Shown piece by piece: positions 11,871 to 54,611 of a stretch of DNA of 64,000 nucleotides. How positions within the stretch are numbered: position 1 is the first letter of the stretch; each line of letters begins with the position of its first letter. The DNA comes from Stropharia rugosoannulata (Eukaryota; Basidiomycota; Agaricomycetes; Agaricales; Strophariaceae): the NCBI GenBank assembly GCA_028532985.1, contig JANCIK010000011.1, forward strand, positions 124,001 through 188,000. Reading direction: 5' to 3'. The position numbers and the translations under genes are program-made. The notes under the pieces were generated by a model. The model was not told the DNA's origin. It searched no databases and worked only from the letters and a program-made list of their open reading frames with translations.

Positions 11871-11872
11871 TT

Positions 11873-28920: not shown

Positions 28921-28990
28921 TGGCCTTCAGTAACCGACTCACACTCTCTTGCTGACCACTGCGCTTCACGCATCTATTTATATCCTGATT

Positions 28991-29842: not shown

Positions 29843-29873
29843 AGAAATTATATTGGAAGGATTAAGACAGATG

Positions 29874-30045
29874 CAGATGCTGTGTGCCTGCATATATTGG
29901 ATGTGCTTAGACGCAGATGCTGTGTGCCTGCGAAAATTGTGGACTCGTGTTGATGCTTTGTGCCGACACATTGGAACAGCAACCAGATGCTTAGTGCCTG
30001 GGAATATTGGAGGATAATTTAGGTGTGGATGCTTAGTGCCTGCAC
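29874..30045 (+). repeat. Five imperfect GATGCT-GTGCC repeats
   Basis: GATGCtgtGTGCCTGC-like units start at about 29876, 29916, 29952, 29986 and 30028 (34-42 bp apart) between the gag stop and the polypurine tract. They replace the pol region in this element. Confidence 0.65.
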
Positions 30046-30091
30046 ATTATGGTAATCGCGGAATTATATGGAATGTTGACTTGAGGGGGAG

Positions 30092-30284
30092 TGTTGGGAT
30101 TGGAGAATGCAATCCAACATTCCAGTCTACTCTCGAAGGAATGTAATGACTCATTAGTTAGTAAGCTACTTAGTAATTACAATGTAGATGAACTTTGTAG
30201 AACATTGTAGATACTTTTCTGTAGGTATAAAAGACTGTATGTATACCTACTAAAATATAACATTATTCATTCTTATTTCCAACA
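30092..30284 (+). repeat. Right LTR of the gag-only element
   Basis: 193 bp; no difference from the left LTR seen. Confidence 0.92.
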
Positions 30285-30547
30285 CAAGTGCATGTCATCA
30301 GCGCAGCGGCTTACGAGGTGCTCTTGGGCAGGCCGTTCGAGATCCTCACGGAGAGCAATGTGAAGACGCGCAGCGATGGAACGGTTGAGCTTACGCTCAC
30401 CGATCCCAACACACAGCGCAAACTGGTAGTACCCACCTATAACCGAGGGTGCGGTCCCAAGATTGTGCAGCGCGAACCTAAATTGCAGGACCCTGTCACA
30501 ATGGAAAACCCTAACGCAGATCAGGATTTTCAATCCTCGATGATTTG

Positions 30548-34611: not shown

Positions 34612-35928
34612 CTACTGGGCGGGTTTGTCCTCGGTGGCAGTAACACCAGTAACGTCGAGGCTGCACTGCAAGACGACAAGCTGCTCGACAAGGAGCGTGC
34701 GGCGCTTGAGGATGAAGTCGACCTTGTGGAGATCACAAATAATCTCAGCCTGTAAATCACCAATGAGGCGGCGCGTCACTAACTCGGAAGGGTTGCCGGT
34801 GTTGAGGGGTTCCTTGAGGAGGTTAGCGGCGGCGTCAAGGCAAGCATTGACCTTGTCGTTGTCCAAAACGAGAGAAGTGCCTGAAGGAGAAGAGTTAGGA
34901 GAGATCAATAAGAAAATGGTGCGGTGCGCGTACCTTGCATAATAAAAGGAGAGTCGGGGAACGTAGGAACGCCCTCTGAGCCCAGCCTGGCTTTCTTAGG
35001 AGAGGCCTCACCTGCGGCGGCGTCACGGAATGAGCGACGGAGCTCGGTCTGACAATAAGTCATGCCTCGACCAAGGGGACGAGAGCGGTAACCAGGAGTG
35101 TCTCCGCGCTCGCGCTGGTATTTCTATAAGAATCTAAGTGTGCGCAGAGGAGACAAGTCAGACACACACCTGTTTGGGGGTATCAGGTGGCGCGGCGCGC
35201 TTCTTGTTAGGACTCGGCTCAGGTGTATGCTGCCTGCTGGGAGGACCTCCCTCAGTCGCGGCTTCAACTTTATCGTCGAGGGCCATCTTTTTGAGGAGCA
35301 TGTAAAGTTGCATGTTAGTGATGTCTGGTAAAGAAACTAAGGTTAGCCACACCTTGTCATCGTCAGAGTCAGGAGATGTAGTACCTCCAGGCGCGGAGGC
35401 GGTCTCAAGGTCCGCAGTTGCGGAACGGGTAAGAACTTGAATGTTGCGCTGCGCACACCAAAAAGGGGATTAAGTATAGAAAGGGTTAGGAGAGGAAGAT
35501 GAGCGCACAGGTCCAGTAGGGGTATGGGTGCGCTGACGAGAAGGGGCAGCCTTGGCCTTGAGGACTTGTTCATGCAAGTTAATAAATGCGTTGGCGGCAG
35601 GGGAGAAGGAGCGAATGTGGTGATCAGCCTCGAGCGACGTATATATGGCGCGAGTCTCATTAAGGATCTCGATAGCTTCACTGTTGTTTATAACGCGAGT
35701 GATACCGCCGTGCGCGTCGCGCCAGCGGTTCTGCAATCGTGCCAGACGAAGTCAGTAAAATACAACAAAAGAACCACGCGGTGCACGCACCAAATCGACA
35801 GCAAGCAGCTCCAAGCTACCAGTATAATTCGCAGGAGTGGCAGAGGCCAACCCACGAATATCCTGGATCAGTGAGAGCTGATGCTTGACATTGGTGAAGT
35901 TAAAAAGAGGAGCATGAGTAGTGGCCAT
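34612..35928 (-). CDS. Antisense gene C of Gypsy-1, unknown function
   Basis: Five exons on the minus strand: 35928-35791, 35730-35509, 35448-35170, 35123-34934 and 34880-34612. All introns are 43-60 bp with GT-AG ends, and the phases join to 365 residues without a stop. The N-terminal third is helical (LFNFTNVKHQLSLIQDIRG), the middle is Pro/Ser/Thr-rich with KKR clusters, and the end is a predicted helical bundle (DKVNACLDAAANLLKEPL...DFILKRRTLLVEQL) that could mediate oligomerisation. I do not recognise the family. The stop is 130 bp from the pol stop, tail to tail. A TATA box lies 61 bp upstream. Confidence 0.7.
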
Positions 35929-35988
35929 GGTAGAGGTTGAGAACAGTTGGAATAAAGGGCGATGCGCTCATACAACAAACGGTGAGCG

Positions 35989-35996
35989 CTTATATA
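35989..35996 (-). promoter_or_regulatory. TATA box of antisense gene C
   Basis: TATATAAG on the minus strand; two copies of TGCGCGCATC (36206 with full 13-mer, 36229) lie 210-240 bp further upstream. Confidence 0.6.
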
Positions 35997-36428
35997 GCAT
36001 TCACCAGGTTGATCAGCGCTGCGCGCAGCTGGTGACCGACCGAGCAGCAGGCCCAAGGAGTTAAGAAAGGAGGGACTTTACAAGAAGTCCAGATGGGTCA
36101 TAGCACAGGGCTACACCATGCCTGACATTACATTCACGGAGATTGAGTGGGATGGAAGGGACCTGAATATAAGATCCCATATAGCAACAAGAGATGGGAG
36201 GACTGTGCGCGCATCGCAGCAAAAAGGGTGCGCGCATCAAGGGAGATGCAGGTCTTTCCCCATTTGGCAAAATGATGTCCGCTTTGGGAATTGATGCCGA
36301 AAATGCATAACAATGTTACCCAACAGTCTTATTTCAAATACAGGGTCATGACATATGTACCAAGAAATAGATGCTAGCTGAGTATAGATAGTTATCAATG
36401 AAAAGACAGCAGAGTGTCAGTTCGGGAA

Positions 36429-37528
36429 TTAAACATCCTAAGAAGTGATTGTCAGGGTTAGTGCAGCGCACGAGGAGAAAGACCCACAGGAAAGAATTCC
36501 TCCTGATAAAAGACCTGGGCGGCATAGTGAAGTTGTTGGAAGTGTTCAGAGTGAGGGAGGATACTGTAGCGCTCAGCATCAGTAGTACCGCACAAGCGCA
36601 GGACAAGCTCGCCATAGTGAAGCTGAGCGCACAAGTGCGAGATGCGGGGCGAGTGGCAGGTAGCTTCGGTCAGCGCCAAAGCCCGCTGCAAAGGATGTCA
36701 GAACGGTGCATGAGAACAATAGCAAAGGGGGACATGCGCGCACCGCATGGTCTTGAACATGACGCATCATGTCTAGGCAGATGGTCATGGGAAGCAGCGG
36801 TTCAGTCGCAGACTCGAGAACAAAGTGAAGTGCGCCTATGTAGATGCGGCAGACGCGCTCATGGTTATCGAGCGGAATATCAGCTAGCGCCCGCTTGGGT
36901 AGAGCAGCTAAGCGCAGAAAGGCAGGATCAGACCTCGCGCGCTGAAGGAGATTACTTTCGGTATTAAGGGAGGGCATGATGATGAAAGACAGGGTCATTG
37001 CTGGACCATATATATTACAAAACAATCCATCAGAAACGCGCACGGGCTCAATCGTAGCTAATATCATCTACTACAAGGGCAGCGTCGGGATCTACGTCTA
37101 GAAGGGCGGTCCCTGTTGGTTCCGAGGGTGGGAGATTGTGAAAAGGCATGCCAAGATGGCTGTACCGGTCGAGAATGTGAAGAGCGGCGTTGCTGAGCAT
37201 GCGCGCATCGAAATGATCGTCGCTGAATCTGCACTGAGCGCGGCCTTCGTAAAACACGATCGTCATGACTAAAGACAGGAATTGGCGATTGAAATCGATA
37301 AAGCGCAAAGGCAGTGTAATACAATCCTGGAGGAAAACGTCAGTAGAGGAAGCGCTTGCATGAACATAAGGACTTTACCAGTGCGCGCACGAGGGACTGA
37401 GCAGACTGTAGAGGAAAGTGAAAAGGGCCGTTGTGGCAGTCCTCTGCGAGCTCCGCATGAATGGCGAGTTGCCTCAATAGCACGGTAAATTGGCAAGCCA
37501 CAGCGGTGCGCTGATATCAGAGAGCCAT
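36429..37528 (-). CDS. Antisense gene B of Gypsy-1, helical protein of unknown function
   Basis: Exons (minus strand) up to 37379, then 37326-37075, 36941-36744, 36685-36515 and 36437-36429 join in phase to about 255 residues. The start is unresolved: the ATG at 37528, 37-44 bp below a TATAAA, reads ATG GCT CTC TGA, and the clear coding sense begins right after that TGA (RTAVACQFTVLLRQLAIHAEL). Either a 5' exon lies elsewhere or codon 4 has mutated. The N-terminal half (LDCITLPLRFIDFNRQFLSL) aligns with Gypsy-2 gene D', and LADIPLDNHERVCRIYIGAL aligns with gene B'. Mostly helical, no catalytic motif seen. Confidence 0.6.
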
Positions 37529-37564
37529 AGCAGAGAGTAAAGAAACTCTCAACTGGGGACAGTT

Positions 37565-37572
37565 GAATTTAT
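37565..37572 (-). promoter_or_regulatory. TATA box of antisense gene B
   Basis: TATAAATT on the minus strand. The 13-mer TGCGCGCATCGCA lies at 37703-37715 and a one-base variant at 37790-37802. Confidence 0.6.
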
Positions 37573-38020
37573 AGTGGGGGGGAGAGATGGCCTAGCCAAG
37601 CAGAGATAAACCTAGGTGCTTAAGGAGATACTGCAGGAAGAACAAGAGCTCAGGGCAGAAGTAAAAGCTGGCTGGCGCATACACATTTGCATGTCTTTCA
37701 TATGCGCGCATCGCACTCATACTCGCCCACTGTAAAAAGACAGGAGCAGAAGTTAGTGGGCAGATACAAGCAAGTGGACACGGGCCATATGCGCGCATGG
37801 CACTGGTAGCCGCTCAAAAGAAACCAGGCTAGTAGACATCTTAAAAAGGCAGAGAGAACTTAAGATCACACAGGAGGAAGATAAGAAGATAATGATAATT
37901 CCAAAGCATATAATAGTAAACAAAAACTACTCTACATATGCTAGATAGAATAGTTAGGAAGGGAACAGGAAAGAAGTACAAAATGAAAACAAGCGCCAAA
38001 ATGCGCGCCCCGCAGCAAGA

Positions 38021-41000
38021 CTAGGCCCCCATATTATCGCCATCCTCTTCCTCAGCGGAGACCTCGGGGCTCGAGTCGTCGACAACGACGGGAGAGGACT
38101 TGTAAGACCGAACGGGAGCCTTGCCTTTGCCTTTGCCTTTACCCTTGCCTTTGGAAGTAGCAGAGCGGACTTTGGAAGCCTTAGAAGGCTGGGGAGCGGG
38201 AATAAAAGAAGAAGGATCTTGACGAGGATGGTCGGGGTGATAGAAAGAGGAAGAAGGCAGAGAGTCGATCGAAGGGCGGGAGTCCAATGGTTGGCAGAGC
38301 GCATCGTATGAAGTGCAGAGCTGCTTGAGGTCCATAGAACGAAGGGTATCGAATGTTTCGCAGTCAGCGAAACGGGAGCCAATAATCACATTAGTGGGCA
38401 GGGTCACGGCCATAGCCTGCGCGAGCTGCACAAGCTGGATGAGTTCAGCGAAATAGAGGCGCTGAAGGCCTCGACGAGTTTCCTCAGCGGCGCGCGCTTG
38501 CTGACTGAAAACTTCAATACGGGCGAAAGAGGCATGTAATTCTAGAAAGAAGGAGAACCATAAGTAATAGAAGAAAAGAAGAAAAAGGAGACGCACGCAC
38601 CACGGGGAGAGGTGCAATACCAGCCAGAAGTACCCTCCAAGGCGCTGTCGAGCTCAGGGCCAGTCATGGTATGCAGGCAAGGGCCTTGGCCCCCTAGGCG
38701 GCAACCCACGCATTTCCGGCCAGGACCGCGAAGGATGCAAAAGTGCTTCAGTGAGGGAGTGGTGGAAGAGTCGTCCTGAGGGCGGCTGCAAAGTGAGCAA
38801 GTGAAACCAGGCTAAGGAAGGAACAATAAATAAATGCTAAAAAGGAGAAAAATGAAGAGACGAACGATGATCGCTTCGCGCAGCGCTTCCTCAGGCAGGA
38901 GTTGGGCCATGCTTATGGCGTCTGGCAAGGGGTTGCCAGCAAGGGCCAGGGACGCGTGATAGATGCCAGGCAGGAGGTTGTAGATGGGGTATGTCGAGTG
39001 GTACTGCGACTTGGAGGAATCAACGCCTTTCAGGCGGGGCAGCTCTTCGAGGCCGCTAGGAATCGCCGCTAAGGGAACGACCTTGGTATGCGAGGCGCGT
39101 ACCTGAGGCATGGGGGGAGAGCCGCGCACGGTGGAGGGCCCCGCTAACGTCTCCTGAATCACTAAAAACAAAAATAAAATAAAAGACGGGTGTCAATTAA
39201 AAGGGATAAAGCTGCAAAGAAAGAATACATACCAGCTGCTTTGCGGGTACGCTTGGCTATGGGAATAGCAGGGACAGGCAGGGTGGAGATGGGTACGAGC
39301 GCGGCGCGCTTGCGTTTGGAAGGAGGAGCAGGCGCGGAATCAACAGCTGGAGGTAATAAGAGGTCCGGAGAAGGAGAAGGCAGGGGAGGGGTTGGCGAAG
39401 GAGCGGCGTGCTTTCGTTTGGCGAGTGCGGCAGGAAGGGGCTCGACTGGCAGGGGATCTGGAGAGGGAGGGGGTGGTGTGGGCAAAGGCGAGGCGCGCCT
39501 CTCTTCGACGGGAGGGGCGGTGTGAGGGGCTGGGGCTGGCCCCTCGTGAAAACATGAAAAACCATAAGGTTCAGAACATAGATACACAAGAAGCGACATA
39601 TCCGCCATAACGATCGGAAACTACTATCGGAAACTGAAAGAACAAGAAGAAGCACGAAATATGAAGACTAAGATATGAAGATGCAAGTTTATTCGAAGAT
39701 ATGAAATATGTACATGATGAAACAAGAAGACAAGCACAAGGAAGACTCAAGATGTTATTACAACTCAATGGCAGATCAAGAAAGATAACAGCATCAGAGC
39801 AATATTGGGCTTCTGATGCCGACAACATCAGATCAATATCAACAATCTGATGTAACTATGGACCCACAAGGGAGTCAATCACATGGAAATACTCATACAG
39901 ACGACCTGGGACAAATATGGCAACAGATTCCGATGATATGCAGGGGTTTCCGACGACATGCAAGCGTGTGGTAGCAGAAAGCAGAAGTATCTCGATACAA
40001 ACACAAGGGACATAGGTGCGGAAAGAGGGTCGGAGAAGATGTGTGTTTAGGGGAGAACATGGAGTTGATCCGGCCGCAGGAAGATCTCTTGTGCTTGGGC
40101 TTGGTTTCCGAAGATAAGGATATTTGTGGCCAAGATATGAAGCATGCTGTAGTGCAGCATGGTTTCCGACAAGATAAAGTCAGCATGGGCGGTCGGATCT
40201 TCGTGGATGTATATGGTACGATCTGGGCATGGCAACCAGACGGGTATTTAAGGAGTAGAATATCTCTGTACTTCTCCAGCTTCCTTCAGGGTTAAATTCT
40301 ACCTACACACATCTTACCAGTTCGCATCGGAAACCGTTGTTTAAACCTTGTACACTGGAAGCTCCTTGTTATAAAACAAGTAAAACCTTTTCAACGTGCT
40401 ATCGTTGTACACATGTTGCCTTCGCACATTGTGAACTATAGAGACAGGCTTTTCAGACCAGTCCAACCCAACTTCGCACCTCACAACGTGGAGCCCACCG
40501 CGAGGGTCTACAGTTCACAATAGATCCGTCTGTTCCAGACTGTCGGATAACTCGTCAACTTGCTGCAGAATTTGCTATACCCCTACAACCTCCTGAAGCG
40601 CCCATCAAGAGAAGAAGGAAAAGACCGACACCGTCAGGAAGCCAAATATCTTCAGTACTCAGCCATATATCGGAAATGGATCACGGAATCGAAGCAAACC
40701 CTTTTGAAGTTCAAACTGTGGCGCCCAAAGTCAAGCCTTACCCAAATCGCAACTCAAAAGATGCTCCATCGTTTACAGGACCCACTACTCCTTTACATCG
40801 ATACCTAGAGGACATCGAGGAATTATGCAAAGACAGGGGAGACACATCGGATATCACACGGATTACAAAAACCCTGTGGTATGTGGATTACCGATACCAC
40901 GAAACATGGAAGAATATTCTAGATGAAAACAAATCCTGGAAGGAGAATAAACAAATATTACTGGAATATTTCCCTGGGTTGGATTCGCTCTACAAATACT

Positions 41001-44000
41001 CAGTCAACGATCTGCATAAATTAATACAGAAGTTTTCGAGCAAACCCATGGATAATCAAGAACTTCTAGCAGAATATCATTGTGAATTCATGATTATAGC
41101 TACTTATCTGGAGAAGGAGCAATTATCATCAAGAGACGACATCAACAGAAACTATGTTCTAGGTCTTCCAAAAGAATTCAGGGCGAAGGTTCTTACTCAA
41201 TTAACGGCTGAAGACCCGAAGCGGAAACCGGGCCTGGTTCATGATTATCTTCAAGTTAATCGAGCAGCTCGATATGTTCTTTAAGATAACACTTATTCTG
41301 ATAGGTATGGCCTTGAAGACACACCTCGTGAACGGACGAAAACCGAAGAAACTGCTCTTGAGCTCATGCTAAGGAAAATGACATCGGAATTAGGATCAAT
41401 AAAGATGTTTATGCAAGGCCAACCTAATACATCTTTTCCGACGCAAGAAAGACCTATGTATCGCTCCACTCCGCGCTACGCCCCTGGTTGCTTGTTTTGC
41501 GGAGACATTAATCATATTATGAGGTCTTGCAACTTGCCGGATGAATTTATAAACAAGGGAATCATCAAACAAGGACCGAATGGTAGATTCACAATGGCTA
41601 ACGGCGACTGGATCAATGGAACTGGAACAATAAAAGAAAGGATTGAAAACATCCTCAAACTGCAACGTGCTCGAGATGTACCCCCTCACCTGTCGCCAGC
41701 TACCACGATGATGTTTTCCTGTACTACGGCTGAAACCTTGTTTAATTCTTCCAGTAAACTCGAAGAAGTCGACGAAGAAATCAGTGAGGTTTATCTGAAG
41801 ACAAGGTCTTCGCCCCAAGACAAACCTGGACCAGGCAAAAACTCATCTGCTTATGAAAAAGTCCCTGAAGTCGTGATTGCCGAAAGGAAATCGGAAAAGA
41901 CAATACCAGAAGCACATGTAAGATTTGAACCGGCTAAAGGACCCCAGTACCGATTTACCTCAGGAGCGGAAAATCTGGATCTTCTTAAGAAAGTCATATC
42001 AAAATCTTTGGATGCAGAAATTACTATTTCTCAAAGAGAGTTGTTGGCTATTTCTGGAGAACTTCGGAAATATTTCAAGGAAACAACTACACCAAAGAGA
42101 ATTCCGATGGTTAGCTATGTCCATGGCGAAGAAAATGAAGGGTCTTATGTGCTACAATTTGCTTCGGAAAATGGGCCATCAGATAGAGTCCTTTTGATGG
42201 CTTCTCCCCTTATGAAACTCAGGGTGATACCCGCGTTGCTAAACGGTGAATTCACGGCGGAATGTGTCTTGGACCAAGGATCGGAAATCATGGCAATGGA
42301 CAAGTGCATATGGAGAAAACTGTCCCACAATATAAACCCAGAAAGGAAAATATATATGGAGTCTGCCAACACGGAATTATCGCAAACGGATGGAATGTGC
42401 GAAAACCTTAAAATCACTATTGGAAGCCTTGAACTTTATTTTCAAGTACATGTTGTGGATAAAGCCCCTTTTCAAGTTCTGATAGGACGACCGTTCTTTG
42501 TGTACACTGGGTGCACTACTAGGGATTATACAAATGGCGACCAGGAAATTACTTTGACTTGCCCCAACACGCAAAAGGTGGTTACTATTCCAACTCAGCC
42601 CAGGAACAAGGTTTCCGAAAAAGAGTTAGCGGATTTTCCAGAATCCCGACTGAATTAAAACGGTCGGGAAAGATGTTCATGTTAAATATAGTGCACAAGA
42701 AACGACATGAACAGCAAGAGAAGGATATTCCTTCAGCACTATCATTTGGACGATTTATAACTCCCTTATTTGCGGCAAGAATAGATGATGAAAGAGGATC
42801 ATCATACCATGAAATATACCCTACTAATTTTAATTTTGAAGTTTCGGCTAGATTTATCGGCCAATGTTTACAGAAGACTTATGCTTACTCTTTTCAACAA
42901 AGAGCACTAATAATAAAAGCCAGGAAGAAATATAAACCTGTGGCAAGACGGACGTTTCCTGTGTCAACTACACTTCCCGAAGAATATCGTGTTATTAGAA
43001 GAATTCCATCGGATCCTCTGGCTAATATGAAACTGTTACCTTTTAAAGTGGACCATATTGAACCAGGAATACGCTATACTAAAGAACGAATGGATGCCTG
43101 GAACATAAATGAAGATGGCTTCTTGACACCGGATGAAGCTCGTCTAGTTCAATGGATCATTAAAGAACATGAGATGGGATTTGCCTGGAATGAGATGGAG
43201 AAAGGTGCCTTCAGAGAAGACTATTTTGAACCACTAAAGATACCCATTGTACCACATGAACCATGGGCGGAAAAACCGATACCGATACCTCCAGGCATCG
43301 CTAAAGAAGTCACGAGAATTTTTCAAGATAAAGTCGCAAGCAAAGTATATGAGCCTTCTAGTTCACCTTATCGGTCAAGGATCTTATATGTGCCAAAGAA
43401 AAGCGGAGCAATACGGGTAGTGCATGACCTGAGAAGGTTGAATGCAGTAACCATAAAGGACTCAGCTCTACCGCCAGTTGTAGAACTTTATGCGGAATCT
43501 TTCGGTGGAAGAACTATCTATGCCATGTTTGATTTGTTTGTAGGATTTGACCATCGGGTTCTTCATCAAGATTCAAGAGATTATACTACGTTCTCTTCGC
43601 CTATCGGAAACCTGAGATTGACCCGTCTACCACAAGGATTTACAAATTCGGTTCAAGTCCAACAGGGCGATGTGTCATTTATCTTGGAGCCTGAGATTCC
43701 TGAATTTACGGCACCTTTTGTGGATGATGTACCGGTCAAAGGACCACAATCTTATTATCAAGATGAGAATGGGGTCTATGAAACGATTTCCGAAAACCCT
43801 GGTATCAGAAGATTTGTCTGGGAACACTTGAACAATGTACACCGCATTATTCAAAGGATACAGCATGCTGGAGGAACCTTCAATGCCTTGAAATCCTTTT
43901 TGGCTGTACCAAGAATTAATGTTGTTGGCCATATGTGCAGCATCCAAGGAAGGACGGTTGATGAGTCAAAAGTCAGAGTTATCAGGGATTGGAAACCTTG

Positions 44001-47000
44001 TGAAAACTTGACAGAAGTTCGCTCATTCTTGGGAACATTGGGTGTAATGTGTATCTTTATAAAAGATTATGCAATGCATTCAAGACCGTTAACTGAACTA
44101 ACAAAGAAGGACATTGAATTCACATGGGGACAAAGAGAACAAGAAGCAATGGACAGTTTAAAGCGTCTCTTAATTCAGTCTCCTGCACTAACGGCATTGG
44201 ACTATGAATCCGAAGGACAGATCATAATGGAGGTGTACTCAAGCAACATAGCCGTGGGTTTTATTTTATCTCAGGTTAAAGAAGACGGAAAGGAACATCC
44301 TGCGCAGTTTGGTTCTATAACTTGGAACGAAAGAGAATCAAGATACTCACAAGCCAAGATCGAGTTATATGGCCTATTTCACAGCCTTAGAGCGTATCGG
44401 ATATACCTGGTTGGAGTGGAAAACTTGATAGTCAGGACTGATGCGAGTTACCTCAAGGGAATGTTAAACAACCCCGATATACAACCTAATGCTACGATAA
44501 ATCGCTGGATAGCCGCCATACTTTTGTTTGACTTCAAGCTAGAACACGTCCCTGGGAAATCACATTCACCAGACGGTCTGTCAAGAAGGAGACGATCAGA
44601 ATTAGATCCTCAAGAAGATTCCGAAGAAGAAGTAGAAGACTGGATCGACAGGGCATGCGGCTTCGGAATCTGGGTCTTAAACAAAAATGACGATCGGAAA
44701 TTCACTCACATGTCTATGGTACAGAAGAAAATACTAGGATCGTCATTGTCTTACAAGGCTATGGTACTTATTGCAGCTAAATCGGTACCTCACCGTTCGG
44801 AAATTACTACAACACTTAAGTTACCGGTTTCCGACAGAGGGGCTGACATGGATGAGGAATTAAAGAAGGTCAAAGAATTTCTAGGCGACCCCGAAAGACC
44901 CGCATGGATTCGCACAAGAAAGGAGTATGACCGCTTCCTCAAGAAAGTAAGGCAATTCTTCATACTGGACGGAAAGCTATGGAAAAGGTCCGATGATGGT
45001 GAACATAAACAAGTGGTACAACAAGAAGATAGGCTTCGGATACTTCAAGAAGTACATGATAACTTAGGACATAAGTCTTATTTCACTGTGTGGAATAGGC
45101 TCACGAAGCGTTTTTGGTGGCCTAACATCAGTAATGATCTTACGTGGTACTTGAAGACCTGCGATATATGTCAGTGACAGTCTAGGGTAAAGAACCTCAT
45201 TCCGCCAACGGTAGCTCGTCCATTGTCGCTTTTTGTCAAGGTTCACGCGGATACTTTCTTTATGCCCAAAGGAAAAGGGGGAAAACATCTCTGTCTTCAT
45301 CTACGATGTTCACTTTCGGGAATGCCTGAAGCTCTGGCTGTAGCGTCGGAAAACCATACGGTTATAGGAGAATTTCTGTTGGATGTTATGTCGCGATGGG
45401 GAGCTATGGCTATTATCGTGACAGACAATGGTACACCTTGGGTTAAAGCTGTGAACTATTTGGCGGAAAAATATGGAATCTACCACATCAGGATTTCGGG
45501 ATATAATTCGCAGGCAAACAGCTTGATTGAAAAACGACATCTCGATGTTAGGGAAGCAATAGTCAAGACTTGTGAAGGCAACTTATCAATATGGCCATTA
45601 ATTCTCCGATTTGTTTTATGGGCTGAACGTGTTACGGTACAAAAATCAACAGGTTATACTCCCTACTATATTGCGCACGGAGTGGAACCATTATTCCCAT
45701 TTGACATCACAGAAGCGACCTTCATGTTTCCCGATCAAGTTGATATGATTTCCGAAGAAGAGCTAATAGCACGAAGAGCTATAATGCTGCAGAAGCGACC
45801 GGAAGATCTTGAAAGGGTCAAGGACAAAGTGGAGCAAGCACGGCTGAGGCAAGCTCGTTATTTTGAGCAATACAATAAGCATTGCATCGTGTTACAAGAT
45901 TTCACACCAGGTACTTTGGTCCTAGTCAGAAATTCACCAGTTGAGAAATCACTTGATCGGAAAACAAAACCGCGATACTTTGGGCCTCTAATGGTGTTAC
46001 GACAAACGAAAGGGGGGTCTTACATCTGCGCTGAACTCAGTGGAGCCGTATCCTACAAGAGATTCGCTGCATATCGCCTAATACCTTATATATCAAGAGA
46101 ACCGCTTGAAATACCATGGGAACTATTGTCCCAACCCAAGGATTTAATTGAAGGCATGGTTCTTGAAGAAGTACCCGAGGACTCCCAAGTGGCGCCAGAT
46201 AATGAATAACAAGTTTCCGAAACCGTTTACACAAACTTAAATTTTCTTAATGGAGCTTCAACAGTTTCAGGTCCTTTTCTTCTCATTTGTTAAATAAACT
46301 CTCTTGCTTTTAGGTTACGTTTCAGTTTTACAAGATTATGAAATTGTTGCTTTCAAAATTATAATATACATTGACCAAGACAAGTTATTCACTGCAAGAT
46401 ACTGTGACAATATGGTTCCCGAAGAAGGGTGGAAAAAAGAATTACGACAAGAAGAAATACATATAAAGTCCCCTTTACCTCCTGCGGAATCTGTTGATTT
46501 CCCCGGCCATTTGACGGATTTCTTCAATGCGCTCCATCGACAGTTCCACCAGGTCATGAAGTCGAATCTCCATATCAGTGTAATGACGCAGGTTTCTCTC
46601 GCAGAGGTTGTCTAGTTCTTCGAGCCCATTCGCTGGGTCGGCAGTCGTTTGCCATTCGCGGAAATCTCGCACCAATCGGGTATAAGGTTCATACGATGGT
46701 AAACCTTCGTCGGGAACGTCAGAACTACGGCTGGAACTAGAATGTGTTATACCTGTGGAACAAGGTTACCGACATTTGATAAAGAAAGGGAATTGTATTT
46801 ACTCACCAGAAGTTCCTTCACCAACACCTTTTTGGTTCGCGACGATGGTTTCCGTGAACTCAAAGGCAGGCGTCGGATCATAGAAAGGTGGCGGGCCGTC
46901 TTCCTCAATTAGCATCGGGCTAGTTGGCGCGTCGTTGGTGGTAAATTCTTTGTCCACGCCGTCTGACTCGATTTCGTCCGCTTCATCGGTCTCGCTGTTC

Positions 47001-50000
47001 TGGTCGCTGTCACCTTCATCATCGCTATCAGTTTCGGGATCGGGATGGACCGTGCGGGATCGTTGGTCGTACGAAAAATTGCTACCAGCCAAGGCTCGGG
47101 TCAAGAAATCGCTGGGTTGTTGTTTCTGAAACATGGGCAGTGTTATCAGTAAGGAAGAGACCGTCAAATTCAAAATAGGACGTACACATGCGGCAGTATT
47201 ATTGCTGCAGTTCTTCTTGTCGACCTTGCAGTTGGTGCATGCTCGGCTCCAGCGCGGTGTGTATCGCAACGTACACATGTAACCTGGGTGGTTTTTACAC
47301 CAAGAACACTTCTGGATCTCTGTTTTAGAACGACTGAAACTTAATATGGCATAATTACTCACTTGGTCATACTCATACCACCCTTCAGCGAGGCCGAGAA
47401 TTTGCGGGGCGGCCCAGCGCATATCGACTTCGTACGTTGAAGCAGGACGAGCAGTGCGACGAGGAGGCATGTTTTTATGAGTAGATGGTGGAGGAGGGAG
47501 GAAAGAATGGTGAAAGCATGAGTGGAATAGGCAGGCTTTTTATATTCTTTTAGGACCGCGGTTCAGCACACTTTCGGTAATCGGCTAGCTTTGAATGAAT
47601 TCGGCATCATGCGCGGATGGCACTATGAAGAAACCGATAGAATGCTGTGGATTCTTCTCTATGACTCGGTCCTATATGTTGGACAATTGGGCTGCCTTTA
47701 CTGGAACTGCAATAACTTCGATGCGAATCTTGTTCGGATTTTCTATTTTTAGGTCGGAAATCACCGTGGCTCTTGTTCTGGAAAGCGGCGTTGCCTAATC
47801 TAGTATGACGGCGTGATGGCACCGGGTTTATGGTGACATGCCGTGCTGCTTTAGGAAATGGCGATACCTCTTTGGTCTGCTGTCGGGTTGTTGTTGCGGC
47901 AATGCTCTGGGCCGCCGCGGAGTTTTCAACTGGCATTTTCGGCTGTGATGGCGCATGTGTAAGCTGGGCGGCATGTTCAGTCTTACTTCGGCATCTTCCA
48001 TTTTCATTCGGCATTTTTTGGCATCGTATGGCAGTGTCAAATTTGCGTGCGGAAATCTATCATAAGGAGTTTACATCTATGGGCAGTTGTATCTACGGCT
48101 GATTGGCTTGTTTCTCAATCCAGTCCCTCCATCTCTCTACTCCATCTATGGTGAAGTCAGTTTCGCACAAGTAGCAGTGGCGGAAACCTTGCGACTGCTT
48201 CTCAGCTGCTTTGAGTAGGCTCAATGCCTTATCCTGCTCGCTGTCTACAAGAATGGCTCTGTATTCGCTCATGATTCGGCGAAGCAAGAGTAGTGTCCAC
48301 GATGACCGGGGTCGGAATTGTTTCGTGGATATATAATCTTCGAAATGGTCATTCTGTGCAGAATAGGGATTGTCAATTGGGTTTGATTTCAACGGGACAA
48401 GTGGGTCAACTTACAATGTAATGGCACAGGGCGGCAAGTGTCCAATGTGTTTCCATCGCGTCTGTTGCGGAACGAGATAGCATTTGATCGGATATCAATT
48501 GGTCTATGGTAGGTCGAATGGCATGCTCTAGGACCTGCATGATGTCCGCTGGATTCTTCACAGCTGTGGTCAATAATGTGGTGAATCGAGTGGTGGTGCT
48601 CATTTCTGGTGTTTGGGCAGACTAGTTGCCTTCCCTTTTATACAGATTTCAGGTGCTGGGCTACTTGGCATTGGACGATCTGGACGCATGGATACATGTC
48701 ACTTGTCTGGAGATTATCTAGCTAATTTCCGACAGCCGGTTGTTGGTTATGGGTCGCCTACTCCGCACACACATGCCTGTTGATACTGGAAGAAAATGTC
48801 GTCCATGCGCTCCTTGATTTCGGGAATCTCGTGCCCGGTGTATCCAAATGTCATCGTCATGTATCGCATACGCATTAACACCCTCAATTCGGCCATGGTG
48901 ATTTGCTCGTTGGGCGATTGATGTATGCCTACATGTTGACGACCATGCCATGCTATATACTATGATAGTGTTAGGGCGGCACGTCTCCTGAAGACGTTAC
49001 TTACTGCTATGGTTTGTCCTAGGAACAAGAAGGACCGGAGATCGGTTATGACAGGCTGCAAGTTGATGGTGTCAAGCTGGAGTATTCGTGTGTATTCGTA
49101 TTCTAGGGCTTCGACGAATGGATCAAGGCAATGTTTGAAGACATATGGGATCGGAAATCGTTTAGATCGGTGGGCAACTCGAGCACTAATGATTGAAGAT
49201 ATAGACGTAAAGGCGCTTGCATTGCGGGTGCTACGGAATAATCTACTAGAGCTCTACACTTTATATATCCATCTCTCGCACCGATGTTCGGAATCTCGCA
49301 TGTGGACGCTGGGAGGGAATGGCCATTTGAAGATGAAAGATTGCTGCTGGAATTTCTTCGATGTCTGATGTGTCTTCAGGTGTTGCGGCTGGCCTGAATG
49401 CTGGCAGGTGTTCTTCAAGGGGGTCTTCGGCTTTGACGCGGTTTGAAAACTGTAACCACCACCGACTGTTGCTGTCCAGTTCATTAAATTCTTTGAAGTC
49501 GACTTGGTTTTCTTTGGTGGCATCGGCAGTGTCCTCAGCATATAGCGCCATGAACCGCAGTATGGTCGACCAATACTCGAACCCTTCATGATCCTCCATC
49601 GGAAACATCTCCAGTAAATGCCTGGCACTTGCGCTTAGGTAGCGGCATTCAGGTGGAATCATACGCTCGATTTCACGCTCATTTGACGGCCGCATGTTGA
49701 CGCGAGAGCATAGCAATAAACGCTGCGCTATCATTAGCAGGGCTAGTTGTGAAACGGTTCGAGGGCTTACCATGTGATCAAAATGATCATGAACGTACGC
49801 TTCCACTTGCGCATGGTCGGTTATGTTCAGTTCTCGTACGCTGCGAGTGCGGATGTCCTTGTAGATGGCAAGGCATAGGATTTCATGTTGGTGACAGATG
49901 GTCAACGCAAATTCACGCATGGTTGTTGGTACAACGAATGCATGGCTTCGGTTTCCTGGAGCAAAACAGAGCGAGCGAAATATCCTTTCTGCTGCGGGGT

Positions 50001-53000
50001 CCATGGTGCTTGATGGCGACGACACTTTTGGCTGAAATTTATAGATTTCCGACCACCCAGGAGGGTGGTGTTTTAAAAGTTGAGGGGAGATGTGAGGGGC
50101 TGGGGCTGGCCCCTCGTGAAAACATGAAAAACCATAAGGTTCAGAACATAGATACACAAGAAGCGACATATCCGCCATAACGATCGGAAACTACTATCGG
50201 AAACTGAAAGAACAAGAAGAAGCACGAAATATGAAGACTAAGATATGAAGATGCAAGTTTATTCGAAGATATGAAATATGTACATGATGAAACAAGAAGA
50301 CAAGCACAAGGAAGACTCAAGATGTTATTACAACTCAATGGCAGATCAAGAAAGATAACAGCATCAGAGCAATATTGGGCTTCTGATGCCGACAACATCA
50401 GATCAATATCAACAATCTGATGTAACTATGGACCCACAAGGGAGTCAATCACATGGAAATACTCATACAGACGACCTGGGACAAATATGGCAACAGATTC
50501 CGATGATATGCAGGGGTTTCCGACGACATGCAAGCGCATCATGAAAAAGACTTTTGATCGGAGGGCACTTTAGGAAAGTGCGATCAGATCATCAATTGAT
50601 GGGGCCTTTAACTACTTTAGGATGTCATGAGATGCCTTGGCATGTCCTGGCATGCCCTGGCATGCTTTGAATTTCCATGCAACGTGGGGAAATAAAGCCA
50701 GCTTGAATGACTTTTCCCACCTTCATTGTTGATTTTCAAACATTAAAATTATACACATTATGTGGGTGACATGCCCATTTAAGTACTTCAAATAGTGCGA
50801 TAATTTGATTATGTAAGCCTATCCAATATTGCACTAAGTCGACTAAGTCCTCTAAGTTCACTTGCACTTCACTCTTGTCTTCCCCACCCCCCTCACCCAA
50901 CTTTACTTGTATGCTTGGGCTTCACTCTACTCAGGCAGTTTTGATGGCTGCTACCTTGTTGGATCCTGACCTGGGCTTAGGGCAGACAAGGATGGATCAT
51001 GGAATGGGCCTGTTCCAATAGAGATTGCTGTATATCGTCGGAACGGTGAACCGCATTATAAAGCGGGTTTTTGGTACGTTTTTAGCTCGTCTATACGTTT
51101 CTAACGCACCCAAGAACACTCCAAACGAACCAGTATTTGACGTGCAAACTTAACACCATCTGGAGACCCCTATTGGTACAGTTCACCATTTCCCTTCTCA
51201 TCCGTTTATTCCGAGCCTTCGGTCGCCCCAGATTCAGAATGTGGGCAATTATGCAATTCTAACGAGCTCAATACCAATGGATTTGGTCGCCTGGAAGGCG
51301 AGAACCGGCTATGTTACCCTCCTTCCCCCAATTTCCGATGTTTTATTGATTTTAAAGGTATGTGTTGGGTTTATTGCGTCGTTCTTTTCACATATGAGCT
51401 CCTGAGGATTAGGGGATTCCATAGAGTGCTTGAACGTTCGATTCCGACGCCTGGAAGCCATACAACTGTGATGTGCTCCTCCTGCCCCTGGACTGCCTCT
51501 GCTTGTAAGTGCCATAACTCCGGATCCTGTCCACCTTCACTCCTAATTTCTTTTGCACCTTCAAGACCATCTTAGTCCTCTGCCAAACGTCTCCAAGATC
51601 ATGCCAATTCATCCAGTACTTGCCAAGTATCATCTTATAGGTGTCAAGTCCCCCTAGGACACATTTTCCCTCATATATCTGTCAATACCCGGCCAAACAG
51701 TATGATCTTTGCATTTCCTGGTTCGTCTCATTAATACCTATCGAACAGTACCATTAATTGCGCGATTTGACAAGCTTGAGGGCGATCTCACTCTGTGTGT
51801 CCTCCTACCCCTAGGTAGGACAAATTAATTCATAGGTGCGCTTCTAGATGTCCTGAGTGTCTCAAACTTTGGGAAAACTTACTCAACTACATAAGGTACC
51901 CTCTCCTGAGACGGATTAATTTTTGGGGCCACCAAGCGTCCTTCATCTCAAGTTGCTAGTCAACTTCGGAGTTTTGGAGTATTTCTTTGATTCTGACATA
52001 GGTTCGTCTCCAATCTCCTTAATTCTTTCTATGATGAACTCACCTTGATTGTAGCTTTCTAACGAGCCCTTAAACGCTATATATCGTCGCTTGGAATCCA
52101 AAAATCCGCCATGTGCTCCTCCTCCCCCTCCCTCCTCCAGGTAAAGTACTTCATATCTTGGGTTCCAGTTCGTATTTTTGGCTAATTCTTTTTGGAGTCT
52201 CTTACTATAGATATTTATTGACTAATCGACCAGTTTACGGCGTCCGATATGCCCTCAATATCCGATGTCCTTAATGACCATATAACTACTATTGCAGACT
52301 TAAATATCATCTCCCTCCTTCAATTTTCAACAAAGGCTTTCGAAATTTGGCATGTTCATTCACCATTTATGTGGGGTTTGAACGTGTTCCTTACACAAAT
52401 TTTGAGACTCCTGGATGCCTGTGAGTAGCCATGTCCTCCTCCATCTCCCTGTCTTGGACTAATTTTGCTCTAAGTCAAGAACAACTTCTTCAATTGCGTT
52501 GCGGTTTTTTTGAACTTCTTCGCGTTAATTCAGGCTTTCTAACGAGCCCCTGAATGCGTTATTCCGTGCAGAATTACCATCTTCATAAGCGCCCTATCAC
52601 TGTGTTGTATTATATGTATCTACATGAATACTGTATTATCTAGTGTAGTTAGAGTCAATATATAACTTGTTTTGTATAAGAAGTTTGAATAGTACTTGTT
52701 AAATGGCATTATATATAAACATCTTTGAATGATACAAGGCACATCTGGTGGATCCTAGGATGCCTTGAGCTGCCCTGGATTGCCTTGGGAAAGTTGTACC
52801 TGGTAGTTTGCAGAGGGACCTTGCCCTGAGTGCACCTAAGGGCCCTGGCTGCTTTGCATGCCCTGGCTGCCTTAGGATCTCTAAGGCTGTGCCAGGGAGA
52901 TACAAAGCCCCTGGGGACAAAAGTCATTTTCCTGATGCGTGTGGTAGCAGAAAGCAGAAGTATCTCGATACAAACACAAGGGACATAGGTGCGGAAAGAG

Positions 53001-54058
53001 GGTCGGAGAAGATGTGTGTTTAGGGGAGAACATGGAGTTGATCCGGCCGCAGGAAGATCTCTTGTGCTTGGGCTTGGTTTCCGAAGATAAGGATATTTGT
53101 GGCCAAGATATGAAGCATGCTGTAGTGCAGCATGGTTTCCGACAAGATAAAGTCAGCATGGGCGGTCGGATCTTCGTGGATGTATATGGTACGATCTGGG
53201 CATGGCAACCAGACGGGTATTTAAGGAGTAGAATATCTCTGTACTTCTCCAGCTTCCTTCAGGGTTAAATTCTACCTACACACATCTTACCAGTTCGCAT
53301 CGGAAACCGTTGTTTAAACCTTGTACACTGGAAGCTCCTTGTTATAAAACAAGTAAAACCTTTTCAACGTGCTATCGTTGTACACATGTTGCCTTCGCAC
53401 ATTGTGAACTATAGAGACAGGCTTTTCAGACCAGTCCAACCCAACTTCGCACCTCACAGCAGGCGTTGAGTCAACGACCACTCCACTGGACTCCCCCATC
53501 TCCACATCGGCGCTGGTAGACGTGATCGGCACATATTGGAGGCGAGGCTTGGGCTCGTCTCCGGGGGTCCAGAGCAAAGGGAAAGCCGTGGCGAAAGCCC
53601 CCCGGTATGAGAGAAGCTAAGACGCGGGGGCGTGCAGCGCACGTAAGCAGTTGAAGGAGAAATAAAACAAAATAAAATAAAAGACATACCGGTTCGAGCA
53701 ATGGCTCTGAGTACCAAGCCGGCCGTTTAGTCGGGTCCTGCGCATCCCGACCGAAGGAGGAGGTTTTGTCGCTTAGGCTCAAGATGGACAGGATGAGCAC
53801 GAGCTCGCGGATGCCGGCATGGTGCGAAAGGTCCTGGGGAAAGGCTAGTAGATGGGCTTCGAGGCCCGCGGCAAGCGAGTCCCGATAGGTGTTGAAGAGG
53901 GCCGTCTGGGCGGCATCGAGAATGTCGAGGTCACCAAGGTCCTCGAAGGTGTGAAAGTCGGCCAGTGCAGAGCGCAGGCGGTGGAAGCGGTCGACGCCAT
54001 CGCGTTCGCGATCCTCTGTGCGCTGCGCGATGGAAGAGAAAGCCTTCCGGAAACCCAT
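38021..54058 (-). CDS. Antisense gene A of Gypsy-1, six-cysteine protein, split by Gypsy-2
   Basis: Five exons: 54058-53690; 53616-53459 continued at 39520-39233 after Gypsy-2; 39161-38866; 38811-38601; 38541-38021. Removing Gypsy-2 with one 4-bp target copy leaves exon 2 in frame, and all phases then give 612 residues. Layout: helical N-terminus, Pro-rich linker with KRKR and KRTRK clusters, then exon 4 with CSLC-x16-C-x8-CVGC-x7-C, a six-cysteine probable zinc site, then a helical segment and a Gly-Lys repeat (GKGKGKGKGK) before an acidic end. Gene A' of Gypsy-2 has the same cysteine order. A nuclear, nucleic-acid-binding role is inferred. The third donor (GTTCGT) is weak. Disrupted here by Gypsy-2. 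Confidence 0.7.
39521..40485 (+). repeat. Gypsy-2 left LTR
   Basis: TGTGAGGGGC...ACCTCACA, 965 bp. Contains six exact TCGGAAAC/GTTTCCGA octamers (about 39614, 39627, 39947, 40104, 40162, 40327) and a TATTTAAG near 40245 as a promoter candidate. Confidence 0.92.
40489..40506 (+). other. Primer-binding site of Gypsy-2
   Basis: TGGAGCCCACCGCGAGGG, three bases after the LTR; the same 18 nt as in Gypsy-1 and Gypsy-3. Confidence 0.75.
40676..42658 (+). pseudogene. gag: Gypsy-2 Gag-protease with one nonsense codon
   Basis: ATG 40676. The frame reads as capsid-like Gag to AARYVL, then TAA at 41282-41284, and goes on in the same frame to 42658. Gypsy-3 has AARFVLAG at this place, so one base change explains the stop. 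Downstream: knuckle CLFCGDINHIMRSC, a linker, and a retropepsin domain with LDQGSEI (DQG as in Gypsy-3) and LIGRPFF. As it stands only a 202-residue capsid fragment is made, unless the stop is suppressed. Confidence 0.85.
42673..46209 (+). pseudogene. pol: Gypsy-2 Pol with one nonsense codon
   Basis: ATG 42673 is 15 nt after the gag-protease stop, in the -1 frame (open from 42559). RT: YEPSSSPYRSRILYVPKKSG, LRLTRLPQGFTNS, YMDD position FVDDVPVKGP. RNase H: IMEVYSSN (first Asp replaced), KIELYGLF, VRTDASY. Integrase: HDNLGHKS...CDICQ, then TGA at 45175-45177, after which the same frame continues with HADTFF, VTDNGTP and the region with SLIEKRHLD, to 46209. The TGA separates the zinc domain from the catalytic core. 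Length otherwise normal. Confidence 0.85.
46475..47470 (-). CDS. Antisense gene A' of Gypsy-2, GAL4-like six-cysteine protein
   Basis: Four exons, 47470-47363, 47311-47186, 47125-46807 and 46752-46475, with GT-AG ends and agreeing phases, encode 276 residues. Residues about 37-75 hold C-x2-C-x7-C-x11-C-x2-C-x6-C (KCSWCKNHPGYMC, then ACTNCKVDKKNC), close to the fungal Zn2Cys6 DNA-binding pattern (C-x2-C-x6-C-x5-12-C-x2-C-x6-8-C), though with one extra residue. An acidic stretch (DSDDEGDSDQNSETDEADE) and a helical C-terminus (LVELSMERIEEIRQ) follow, like an activation and a dimerisation region. Counterpart of gene A in Gypsy-1. A regulator of the element is inferred, not shown. Confidence 0.75.
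47536..47544 (-). promoter_or_regulatory. TATA box of antisense gene A'
   Basis: TATAAAAAG on the minus strand, 66-74 bp before the ATG at 47470. Confidence 0.65.
47607..48014 (-). CDS. Possible small antisense ORF of Gypsy-2
   Basis: 135 codons from ATG 48014, basic, Ser/Gln/Thr-rich (MPNENGRCRSKTEHAAQL), without intron, TATA box or visible motif. It lies between genes A' and C' and may be only their spacer. No counterpart was seen in Gypsy-1. Confidence 0.25.
   Translation of the reverse strand: MPNENGRCRSKTEHAAQLTHAPSQPKMPVENSAAAQSIAATTTRQQTKEVSPFPKAARHVTINPVPSRRHTRLGNAAFQNKSHGDFRPKNRKSEQDSHRSYCSSSKGSPIVQHIGPSHREESTAFYRFLHSAIRA
48093..48603 (-). CDS. Antisense gene C' of Gypsy-2, small helical protein
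   Basis: Two exons, 48603-48415 and 48353-48093, joined across a 61-bp GTAAGT...CACAG intron, encode 149 residues. Mostly helical (PTIDQLISDQMLSRSATDAM, RIMSEYRAILVDSEQDKALS) with one Cys pair near the end (HCYLCETDF). A TATA box lies 30-39 bp before the ATG. No family recognised and no convincing similarity to gene C of Gypsy-1 beyond a similar start (MSTTT / MATTH). Confidence 0.65.
48633..48642 (-). promoter_or_regulatory. TATA box of antisense gene C'
   Basis: TATAAAAGGG on the minus strand, 30 bp before ATG 48603. Confidence 0.65.
48747..49253 (-). CDS. Antisense gene D' of Gypsy-2, start unresolved
   Basis: Two exons, 49253-49005 and 48959-48747, with a GTAAGT...CATAG intron in phase 0, give 153 residues ending CVCGVGDP. 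The first exon is open back to a TAG at 49256-49254 and contains no ATG. LDTINLQPVITDLRSFLFLG aligns with LDCITLPLRFIDFNRQFLSL of gene B in Gypsy-1, including the helices after it. TATATAAA sits just upstream (49260-49267). Either a short 5' exon is unrecognised, or it is the 3' part of gene B' through a 28-bp intron (49281-49254), which would be unusually short. Confidence 0.5.
49261..50004 (-). CDS. Antisense gene B' of Gypsy-2, helical protein
   Basis: Single uninterrupted frame from ATG 50004, 247 residues. All-helical look; YLSASARHLLEMFPMEDHEG and the following WSTILRFMALYAE align with the gene B segment around LADIPLDNHERVCRIYIGAL in Gypsy-1. A Glu/Asp-rich segment (TPEDTSDIEEIP) lies near the end. 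TATAAATT is 30-37 bp upstream, and the start of the right LTR is only 87 bp away, so this promoter is packed against the polypurine tract. No catalytic motif recognised. It may extend into D' (see that entry). Confidence 0.6.
   Translation of the reverse strand: MDPAAERIFRSLCFAPGNRSHAFVVPTTMREFALTICHQHEILCLAIYKDIRTRSVRELNITDHAQVEAYVHDHFDHMVSPRTVSQLALLMIAQRLLLCSRVNMRPSNEREIERMIPPECRYLSASARHLLEMFPMEDHEGFEYWSTILRFMALYAEDTADATKENQVDFKEFNELDSNSRWWLQFSNRVKAEDPLEEHLPAFRPAATPEDTSDIEEIPAAIFHLQMAIPSQRPHARFRTSVREMDI
50034..50041 (-). promoter_or_regulatory. TATA box of antisense gene B'
   Basis: TATAAATT on the minus strand, 30 bp before ATG 50004 and 11 bp from the pre-LTR hairpin. Confidence 0.6.
50052..50090 (+). 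promoter_or_regulatory. Gypsy-2 pre-LTR hairpin and polypurine tract
   Basis: ACCACCC-AGGA-GGGTGGT (50052-50069), a 7-bp stem with an AGGA loop, then 21 nt ending TTGAGGGGAGA at the LTR. Confidence 0.7.
50091..53458 (+). repeat. Gypsy-2 right LTR, split
   Basis: 50091-50536 plus 52940-53458 sum to 965 bp, exactly the left LTR length. The middle is a DNA transposon with a CG duplication. Confidence 0.92.
50537..52937. mobile_element. Non-autonomous DNA transposon (2,401 bp) in the Gypsy-2 right LTR
   Basis: Terminal inverted repeats CATCATGAAAAAGACTTTTG (left) and CATCAGGAAAATGACTTTTG (right, reverse complement). CG is present on both sides (50535-50536, 52938-52939) and once in the empty site of the left LTR (GCAAGCGTGTGG), so the duplication is 2 bp. 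No transposase frame. Near the ends, palindromic GCATGCC words recur (50620-50665, 52850-52870). The superfamily is uncertain; CACTA-like elements have 2-3 bp duplications but different ends. Confidence 0.85.
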
Positions 54059-54574: not shown

Positions 54575-54611
54575 TTGACTGAGGACAGTCAAGATTTTAG
54601 TGGGGGGGAGA
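54575..54611 (+). promoter_or_regulatory. Gypsy-1 pre-LTR hairpin and polypurine tract
   Basis: TTGACTG-AGGA-CAGTCAA (54575-54592), 7-bp stem, AGGA loop, then 19 nt ending AGTGGGGGGGAGA at the LTR. Confidence 0.7.

Follow-up and report, generated by a model that had tools for sequence, protein, structure and literature searches.

The Ty3/gypsy retrotransposon Gypsy-1 of Stropharia rugosoannulata carries four intron-containing genes on its minus strand between pol and the 3' LTR (A, B1, B2 and C, with 5, 2, 3 and 6 exons), and these genes are almost certainly real, borne by the element and under selection. Judged from the sequences of the copies, they belong to the element, are kept by purifying selection and have conserved introns. 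A second family, Gypsy-2, has dissimilar proteins in the same arrangement, so the layout occurs in two families. Each examined family of this build is strewn with a short word of its own, which suggests that the antisense genes may help the element to control or defend its own activity. The window, i.e. the whole stretch of DNA that was analysed, is 64,000 nucleotides long (G000:C11:124001-188000), and the genome searched comprises 48 Mb.

Gypsy-1 is about 17 kb long without the nested Gypsy-2. It has the LTRs, primer-binding-like site and polypurine tract of a Ty3/gypsy element, and in its pol the RNase H (530-666) stands before the integrase zinc domain (891-946), which is the Ty3/gypsy domain order. 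The main parts of the element are:

24623-25842, plus strand: 5' LTR, beginning with TGACAG and ending with TCTCA, followed by the primer-binding-like site
30515-34483, plus strand: pol ORF of 1322 aa, with RNase H and then the integrase zinc domain (Pfam)
37573-37585, plus strand: internal polypurine tract, AGTGGGGGGGAGA, with a hairpin upstream and the minus-strand TATA-like box of B1 abutting it
54599-54611, plus strand: 3' polypurine tract, the 13-mer AGTGGGGGGGAGA, directly before the 3' LTR
54612-55830, plus strand: 3' LTR, 98.5% identical to 24623-25842

This copy of Gypsy-1 also holds a copia-type gag-only element of 1.57 kb (28716-30284), which separates the 5' ORFs from pol. The insert has identical 193-bp direct repeats and a single ORF matching gag of the copia type (PF14223, E 9e-31); a pol would not fit into it, and it is probably a non-autonomous copia-like gag-only element. 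Elsewhere in the window, a full-length gypsy element at 10975-19437 has identical 896-bp LTRs and long ORFs and is probably a recent insertion; it contains no antisense gene region and no comparably enriched motif. The window further includes sequence common to about 6.0-6.8 kb and 56.6-58.7 kb, inverted repeats at 61404-62549, and a local array rich in CGCACAC at 60107-61340. Scanning of the long ORFs around this array yielded no Pfam family, only a sub-threshold match at 60982-61767.

An earlier note on this DNA had placed intron-bearing genes on the antisense strand between pol and the 3' LTR of Gypsy-1, with matching exon phases and a TATA box for each gene, and all of this is borne out: manual splicing gives consistent phases across the antisense genes, and a TATA-like box is seen by eye ahead of each. 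However, there are four genes and not three, as the former B separates into B1 and B2 when seven other loci are compared (L044 through a partial alignment), and gene C consists of 6 exons and 343 aa instead of 5 exons and 365 aa. The five exons of A are confirmed, with Gypsy-2 lying inside exon 2. The doubt about the start of B goes back to a real defect: in this copy, a premature stop occurs close to where B1 begins, but 24 of 27 aligned rows are intact. The range of 34612-54058 given for the genes does contain them, but it also spans Gypsy-2 (39521-53458), which has antisense genes of its own. The gene models are as follows:

34612-35928, minus strand: gene C, 343 aa; exons 35928-35791, 35730-35509, 35448-35353, 35286-35170, 35123-34934 and 34880-34612
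36429-36977, minus strand: gene B2, 146 aa; exons 36977-36744, 36685-36488 and 36437-36429, the last being two codons plus the stop
37048-37528, minus strand: gene B1, 142 aa in intact copies, with a premature stop in this copy; exons 37528-37379 and 37326-37048
38021-39518, minus strand: 3' part of gene A; rest of exon 2 39518-39233, exons 3-5 39161-38866, 38775-38601 and 38541-38021
53461-54058, minus strand: 5' part of gene A; exon 1 54058-53690 and start of exon 2 53616-53461, where Gypsy-2 cuts the gene

Gene A is uninterrupted in copy L040. Neither C, B1, B2 and A nor three Gypsy-2 products have a Pfam match at E<=1, which fits the earlier statement that no env-like or chromodomain protein is among the Gypsy-1 products. 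Basic NLS-like runs are visible by eye in A and C, and four cysteines in exon 4 of A are invariant in 22 of 22 distinct aligned sequences. Profile matches of this exon to DNA glycosylases are weak (E 0.074 and above; residues 2-26, holding three of the four Cys) and were taken as chance. AlphaFold gave low-confidence models for exons 1 and 4 of A (pLDDT 51 and 50). A sequence search of PDB with C returned one match at E 0.8, and among 45 pattern matches to C exon 6 in viral contigs there was no relative.

In a catalogue of 5.8 billion proteins, no relative of C or of A was found, whereas a segment of pol used as control found 1226 relatives among 7994 scored candidates, so the catalogue contains kin of Gypsy-1. 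For C and A, the probable cause of the misses is that gene prediction does not render an intron-bearing gene as a single protein; their absence is no evidence of rarity. Antisense genes of this kind are easily overlooked, as this difference from pol illustrates.

The earlier note had also asked whether the antisense genes always sit beside a gypsy pol, and in this genome they do so in nearly all matches listed. Gene C gave 370 matches over all exons, about 142 of which were used. Among the matches listed (window included), exon 6 of C lies beside the pol of the element on the opposite strand in 60 of 60, at a distance of 130-912 nt from the pol tail (median 134). Among 82 further C exon matches listed, 79 are accompanied by a pol tail at most 2.5 kb away on the opposite strand. 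For two of the three others, an A match is listed 2.3-2.4 kb upstream and on the strand of C, so that they resemble cut elements; the third one continues into L039, a locus that starts with C sequence followed by LTR. Among the matches listed in this genome, there is no clear case of a free-standing host copy of C. Seen from pol, at least 82 of 94 tails (60 + 22) are accompanied by a C exon on the opposite strand; the matches listed contain no such exon for the other 12. In L039-L045, the antisense cassette reaches up to the LTR. For Gypsy-2, the last exon of its antisense gene G2A lies beside the Gypsy-2 pol on the opposite strand in 25 of 25 matches listed (window included), 253-412 nt from the pol tail, and one of 26 Gypsy-2 pol tails is without a listed G2A partner.

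That the genes are host passengers captured by chance, without a role for the element, is very improbable. Gene capture by retroelements does occur, no homologues of these genes are known, and three of the 82 further C exon matches listed are without a listed pol tail within 2.5 kb, two of which look like cut elements. Such passengers would hardly keep the same orientation beside pol in every listed last-exon match of both families, nor show purifying selection across copies, and dissimilar genes stand at the same place in the two families. A separate observation concerns L076, whose pol tail is 48% identical to that of Gypsy-1 and near which a HET-domain protein (PF06985), regarded here as a fungal hallmark, is encoded; in this one case, no antisense genes are seen by eye downstream of the pol tail, and no motif is enriched.

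For the selection tests, we used the loci found with C and with A, together with L039-L042. The aligned rows include the window. We removed L020 and L046, which are the window's own loci, as well as exact duplicates and any locus with a coverage below 90% of the gene (80% for pol). Since the copy searches rank places by similarity, well-kept copies are over-represented, and each dN/dS is a mean over pairs that are not independent. For gene C (26 rows, 23 intact), dN is 0.0133, dS is 0.168 and dN/dS is 0.079. The ratio is 0.205 for B1 (27 rows, 24 intact), 0.151 for B2 (24 rows, of which 19 pass the frame test, the others being cut by locus ends or broken) and 0.109 for exons 3-5 of A (27 rows), where dS is about 1; for comparison, the pol tail has 0.070 (17 rows). 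In A exons 3-5, 25 of 27 rows are without an internal stop, and the automatic "intact" count of 7 for A is caused by length remainders. The dN/dS check that the earlier note had proposed across copies thus gives 0.079-0.205, not values near 1. These low ratios indicate that the protein sequence is kept, and not RNA alone.

The reading frame itself was also examined in gene C. Compared with 0.08 in its own frame, dN/dS is 1.91, 3.04, 1.18 and 3.27 in four other frames, and 0.78 for the C introns read as codons; variable sites number 57, 38 and 158 at codon positions 1, 2 and 3. An artefact of composition, or a mirror image of a sense gene, is already contradicted and has hardly any chance of explaining the antisense frames. 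The opposite-strand frame that mirrors the third positions of C does have a low ratio too (0.13), and short sense frames are present (the longest is 172 aa, 36449-36967), with selection tested over C only; but the spliced antisense frame has the lowest dN/dS, GT..AG ends are kept while intron lengths change, and a related subfamily keeps the order and spacing of the B1, B2 and C exons at 65-68% DNA identity.

Most splice sites and frames persist in the copies within this genome, while intron lengths change by non-multiples of three. All five C introns have GT..AG in 26 of 26 rows, with lengths of 60-61, 53-61, 65-66, 43-46 and 52-54 nt, and gap columns in C are 12 of 1032 in exons versus 18 of 290 in introns. 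AG is absent at B2 intron 2 in L016; in A as aligned, L061 and L070 have no GT donor, and L074 and L075 have CAA instead of CAG at an acceptor. Subfamily II (L043-L045), with 65-68% DNA identity over B1-B2 and C, retains the exon order and spacing of these three genes. Intron 1 of A is absent in this subfamily, the protein reading across the junction in L043, L044 and L045, and present in subfamily I, so this intron was lost or gained at least once and "always kept" is too strong. For it to be lost, DNA would have to be made from a spliced antisense RNA. The earlier claim that antisense orientation preserves the introns stands in part: it would follow from the biology of retrotransposition and fits the uninterrupted pol frame.

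In Gypsy-2, too, the antisense genes occupy the interval from pol to the 3' LTR. Introns are likely in these genes, and TATA-type boxes precede at least G2A, G2B and G2D:

39521-53458, plus strand: Gypsy-2, inserted in exon 2 of gene A; LTRs 39521-40485 and 50092-50536 + 52937-53458
46475-47470, minus strand: G2A, Cys-rich; 4 exons, 47470-47363, 47317-47186, 47125-46807 and 46752-46475 (start and last base of exon 2 set by hand)
48093-48603, minus strand: G2B, 2 exons, 149 aa
48747-49220, minus strand: G2x reading frame, with one likely intron and its 5' part out of frame
49261-50004, minus strand: G2D, 2 exons, 231 aa

In hhalign comparisons among A, B1, B2, C and the Gypsy-2 genes, the best probability is 1.3%, the Gypsy-2 profiles being single sequences. 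As to the condition of this copy, its pol (42523-46209) has an in-frame stop near 45175, and its 3' LTR is split by a 2.4-kb insert (50537-52936) with imperfect inverted ends. The flanking LTR pieces overlap by 3 bp, which is likely a target duplication.

Gene A differs between copies far more than its neighbors. In L039-L042, the LTR is 85-99% identical (200-base windows) and B1-B2-C 88-98%, while in most pairs of these copies the identity falls to 50-77% within A, with mosaic breakpoints. L039 and L042 are 98-100% identical over much of A and about 80% in the rest of it. In the interval from the LTR to A, L039 is only 62-66% identical to the other three copies. Among 23 rows with both genes, the dS of A exceeds that of B1 in 224 of 253 pairs, and for the 16 pairs with B1 dS <0.05 the median A dS is 0.80 (range 0.01-1.70). 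Despite this divergence, A is still constrained, as its dN/dS of 0.109 indicates. The pattern fits a swapping of old A cassettes, which may have taken place through template switching.

The internal polypurine tract is exact in 20 of 22 collected copies. A hairpin stands upstream of each tract, the two stems differing by paired changes and folding modestly better than shuffles (z -1.1 and -2.2). In subfamily II, L043 and L045 have AGTGAGGGGGAGA at both tracts, a common base change, and in L039 the 3' tract is not identical to the internal one. No second polypurine tract was seen in Gypsy-2. On this sequence pattern, 37573-37585 is a possible central polypurine tract abutting the antisense promoter of B1.

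An enriched motif of 7-8 bases is found in each of three antisense-gene families, which have different motifs. In Gypsy-1, GCGCGCA is observed 54 times against 3.8 expected (both LTRs counted) and TGCGCGCA 22 times against 0.43; in Gypsy-2, TCGGAAA is observed 33 times against 2.1 (both LTRs counted); and in the subfamily II copy L043, CAGCGGA is observed 40 times against 1.9. Without LTR doubling, the enrichment statistic is 14.0-24.1 in 8 of 8 antisense-gene stretches, which come from three families and so are not independent, versus 4.7-10.2 in 15 other stretches (14 of 15 at most 7.8), 8 of which are short pol stretches and thus weak controls. The control maximum of 10.2 is due to CGCACAC, with 12 of its 13 sites in the local array at 60107-61340. 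Genome-wide, the counts for a pattern and its reversed form are 337 versus 0 for TGCGATGCGCGCA, 2784 versus 633 for TGCGCGCA and 1471 versus 280 for CTCAGCGGA, while GTCGGAAAC is not enriched (533 versus 662).

Sister subfamilies that have the antisense genes in common differ in motif. C loci have 4.97 GCGCGCA sites per kb, A loci 2.97 (with a single site in L070, one of them) and subfamily II 0.27, the loci overlapping in part; for CAGCGGA, the density is 4.85 per kb in subfamily II versus 0.43 in C loci. Within the elements, GCGCGCA reaches 8.6 per kb in the LTRs of Gypsy-1 versus 1.6 in coding DNA, and the Gypsy-2 motif reaches 6.2 in LTRs, 2.6 in gag-pol and 0.5 in antisense exons. Coding DNA holds 17 of the 54 sites in Gypsy-1, and gag-pol 15 of the 33 in Gypsy-2. 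This concentration in LTRs, where host factors act, would suit a motif that is the site of a host protein (an insulator, transcription factor or chromatin factor), the antisense proteins doing other work such as nuclear import or assembly, and the lack of any DNA-binding domain recognised by Pfam in the products points the same way. We nevertheless regard this explanation as unlikely, since the sister subfamilies have the same genes and layout with near-exclusive motifs, and two host factors would be needed in turn.

Non-CpG bases of the motifs are better kept than other bases (582 of 591 versus 22147 of 24214), while motif CpGs are not clearly better kept than other CpGs (260 of 305, 85%, versus 595 of 728, 82%). 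A site-for-site replacement of motifs between subfamilies is unsupported (4 of 11 overlap versus 2.0 by chance, P 0.23). The CpG and site-swap results count against simple selection on the motifs. Between subfamilies, exon 5 of C is 57-61% identical and the other C exons 75-88%, and in the sole within-subfamily comparison (L041) exon 5 is 95% identical. This exon is near-constant in one pair with the same motif, yet no other C exon has diverged as much between subfamilies whose motifs differ. For this reason, we take C as the best candidate for a motif reader, with exon 5 as a possible reading part; we treat this as a lead only, and the choice of gene as a guess. Gene A was set aside as a reader, as it is 46-67% identical to L041 within one motif class.

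In the mechanism that we propose, Gypsy-1 would have a second, antisense transcription programme, in which A, B1, B2 and C would each be transcribed from a TATA-like promoter of their own. Since the genomic RNA runs the opposite way, the introns have no splice signals there and reverse transcription copies the whole cassette; splicing would be restricted to the separate antisense mRNAs. The products may act in the nucleus as element-specific regulators, as the NLS-like runs in A and C and the four-Cys pattern in A suggest. At least one of them would recognise the family motif (TGCGCGCA in Gypsy-1, CAGCGGA in the sister subfamily, TTTCCGA in Gypsy-2) and would keep the copies of its own family expressed, as VANC does for VANDAL. 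Gene A would be a hypervariable cassette swapped among elements.

The chances that the products are nuclear regulators of their own family, taken as regulation in general, seem to us about even. The specific version is more tentative, short of an even chance but a serious possibility: an anti-silencing or self-activation system, in which C would read an address word in LTRs and spacers, the word and its reader would be switched together between sister subfamilies, and A would be shuffled between elements, perhaps in conflict with the host or with rival elements. Another possibility, which we consider rather unlikely, is that the genes, though real and under selection, restrain the element, through copy-number control or through antisense transcripts that produce dsRNA, and that the motif is unrelated to them. 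Ty1 p22 is the comparison case for an element-limiting product. Antisense transcripts would overlap the genomic RNA, a dsRNA role is among those discussed for antisense ORFs in the available part of PMC7264820, and the CpGs of the motif are without special conservation. On the other side, the low dN/dS indicates that protein sequence is kept and not RNA alone, and the motif is enriched in the three tested antisense-gene families and not comparably in the 15 other stretches.

Gypsy-1 shows that a programme of several genes and many introns can travel in a retroelement when it is written in antisense to the genomic RNA. The family-specific motifs offer a direct test of self-recognition by a retrotransposon and of the countering of silencing. 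Furthermore, related gene-bearing subfamilies with different motifs in one genome are a natural experiment in the co-evolution of a DNA-binding protein and its site.

Several known systems resemble parts of this arrangement. In Ty1 and HIV-1, which have a central polypurine tract, a second copy of the 3' polypurine tract lies inside the element as in Gypsy-1; unlike these, the internal tract of Gypsy-1 has a paired hairpin and abuts an antisense gene promoter. The HBZ transcript of HTLV-1 is spliced. According to the available part of PMC11963269, retroviruses carry antisense genes, and HBZ is an example. HBZ lies antisense near the 3' end and its product is a nuclear regulator, the role that we also propose for the Gypsy-1 products; however, HBZ is a single gene, whereas the retrotransposon Gypsy-1 has four, each behind an internal TATA-like promoter.

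Antisense ORFs between pol and the 3' LTR of Ty3/gypsy elements (aORF-3R) are already known from plants, such as gene23 of Grande, RIRE2 and Retand (PMC7264820; PMC11963269, as far as available), and for the fungal element Boty an antisense gene, brtn, is reported in the accessible part of PMC7264820. The same sources, in the parts available, describe the function of the plant and Boty antisense ORFs as unknown. On this information, aORF-3R elements are like Gypsy-1 in position, orientation, many copies and the absence of clear homologues, and their products are suspected to be nuclear or DNA-binding, as proposed here; an own promoter has been shown for Grande, and the Gypsy-1 genes have TATA-like boxes only. 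TRP28 (PF04195), the mark of plant Retand, is absent from the antisense products at Pfam E<=1. Unlike aORF-3R, Gypsy-1 has four genes with 1 to 5 introns each, one of them hypervariable and exchanged, and there are two families with dissimilar gene sets as well as dispersed motifs specific to each family. As far as the main text of PMC7264820 and PMC11963269 is available, it never uses the word "intron", and the literature on antisense genes, introns and LTR elements that we searched, with few subscription journals, contains no intron-bearing antisense gene set in fungal LTR elements. Thus, what is new relative to the literature searched is the multi-gene, multi-intron and motif-marked version.

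The VANDAL elements of Arabidopsis, which are Mutator-like DNA transposons, give the closest parallel to the motifs. VANC21 binds YAGTATTAY, which is dense in its own family and varies between subgroups (PMC5735166; PMC10398659, available parts). As far as these sources go, VANDAL21 and Gypsy-1 both have a short motif that is dense in one family, rare in its sisters and different between subgroups, and an extra protein encoded by the element, with an exon/intron organisation that differs among relatives. As in the VANC type, the motifs described here are family-specific, short, dense and mainly non-coding, the exceptions being 17 of 54 sites in Gypsy-1 and 15 of 33 in Gypsy-2. According to the same partly available sources, VANC is shown to bind its motif and to remove methylation, while the likeness of Gypsy-1 is known from sequence. 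The two also differ in the kind of element, since VANDAL is a DNA transposon and Gypsy-1 is not Mutator-like but a Ty3/gypsy LTR retrotransposon with antisense genes. If the anti-silencing reading is true, Gypsy-1 would be the retrotransposon counterpart of VANC/VANDAL.
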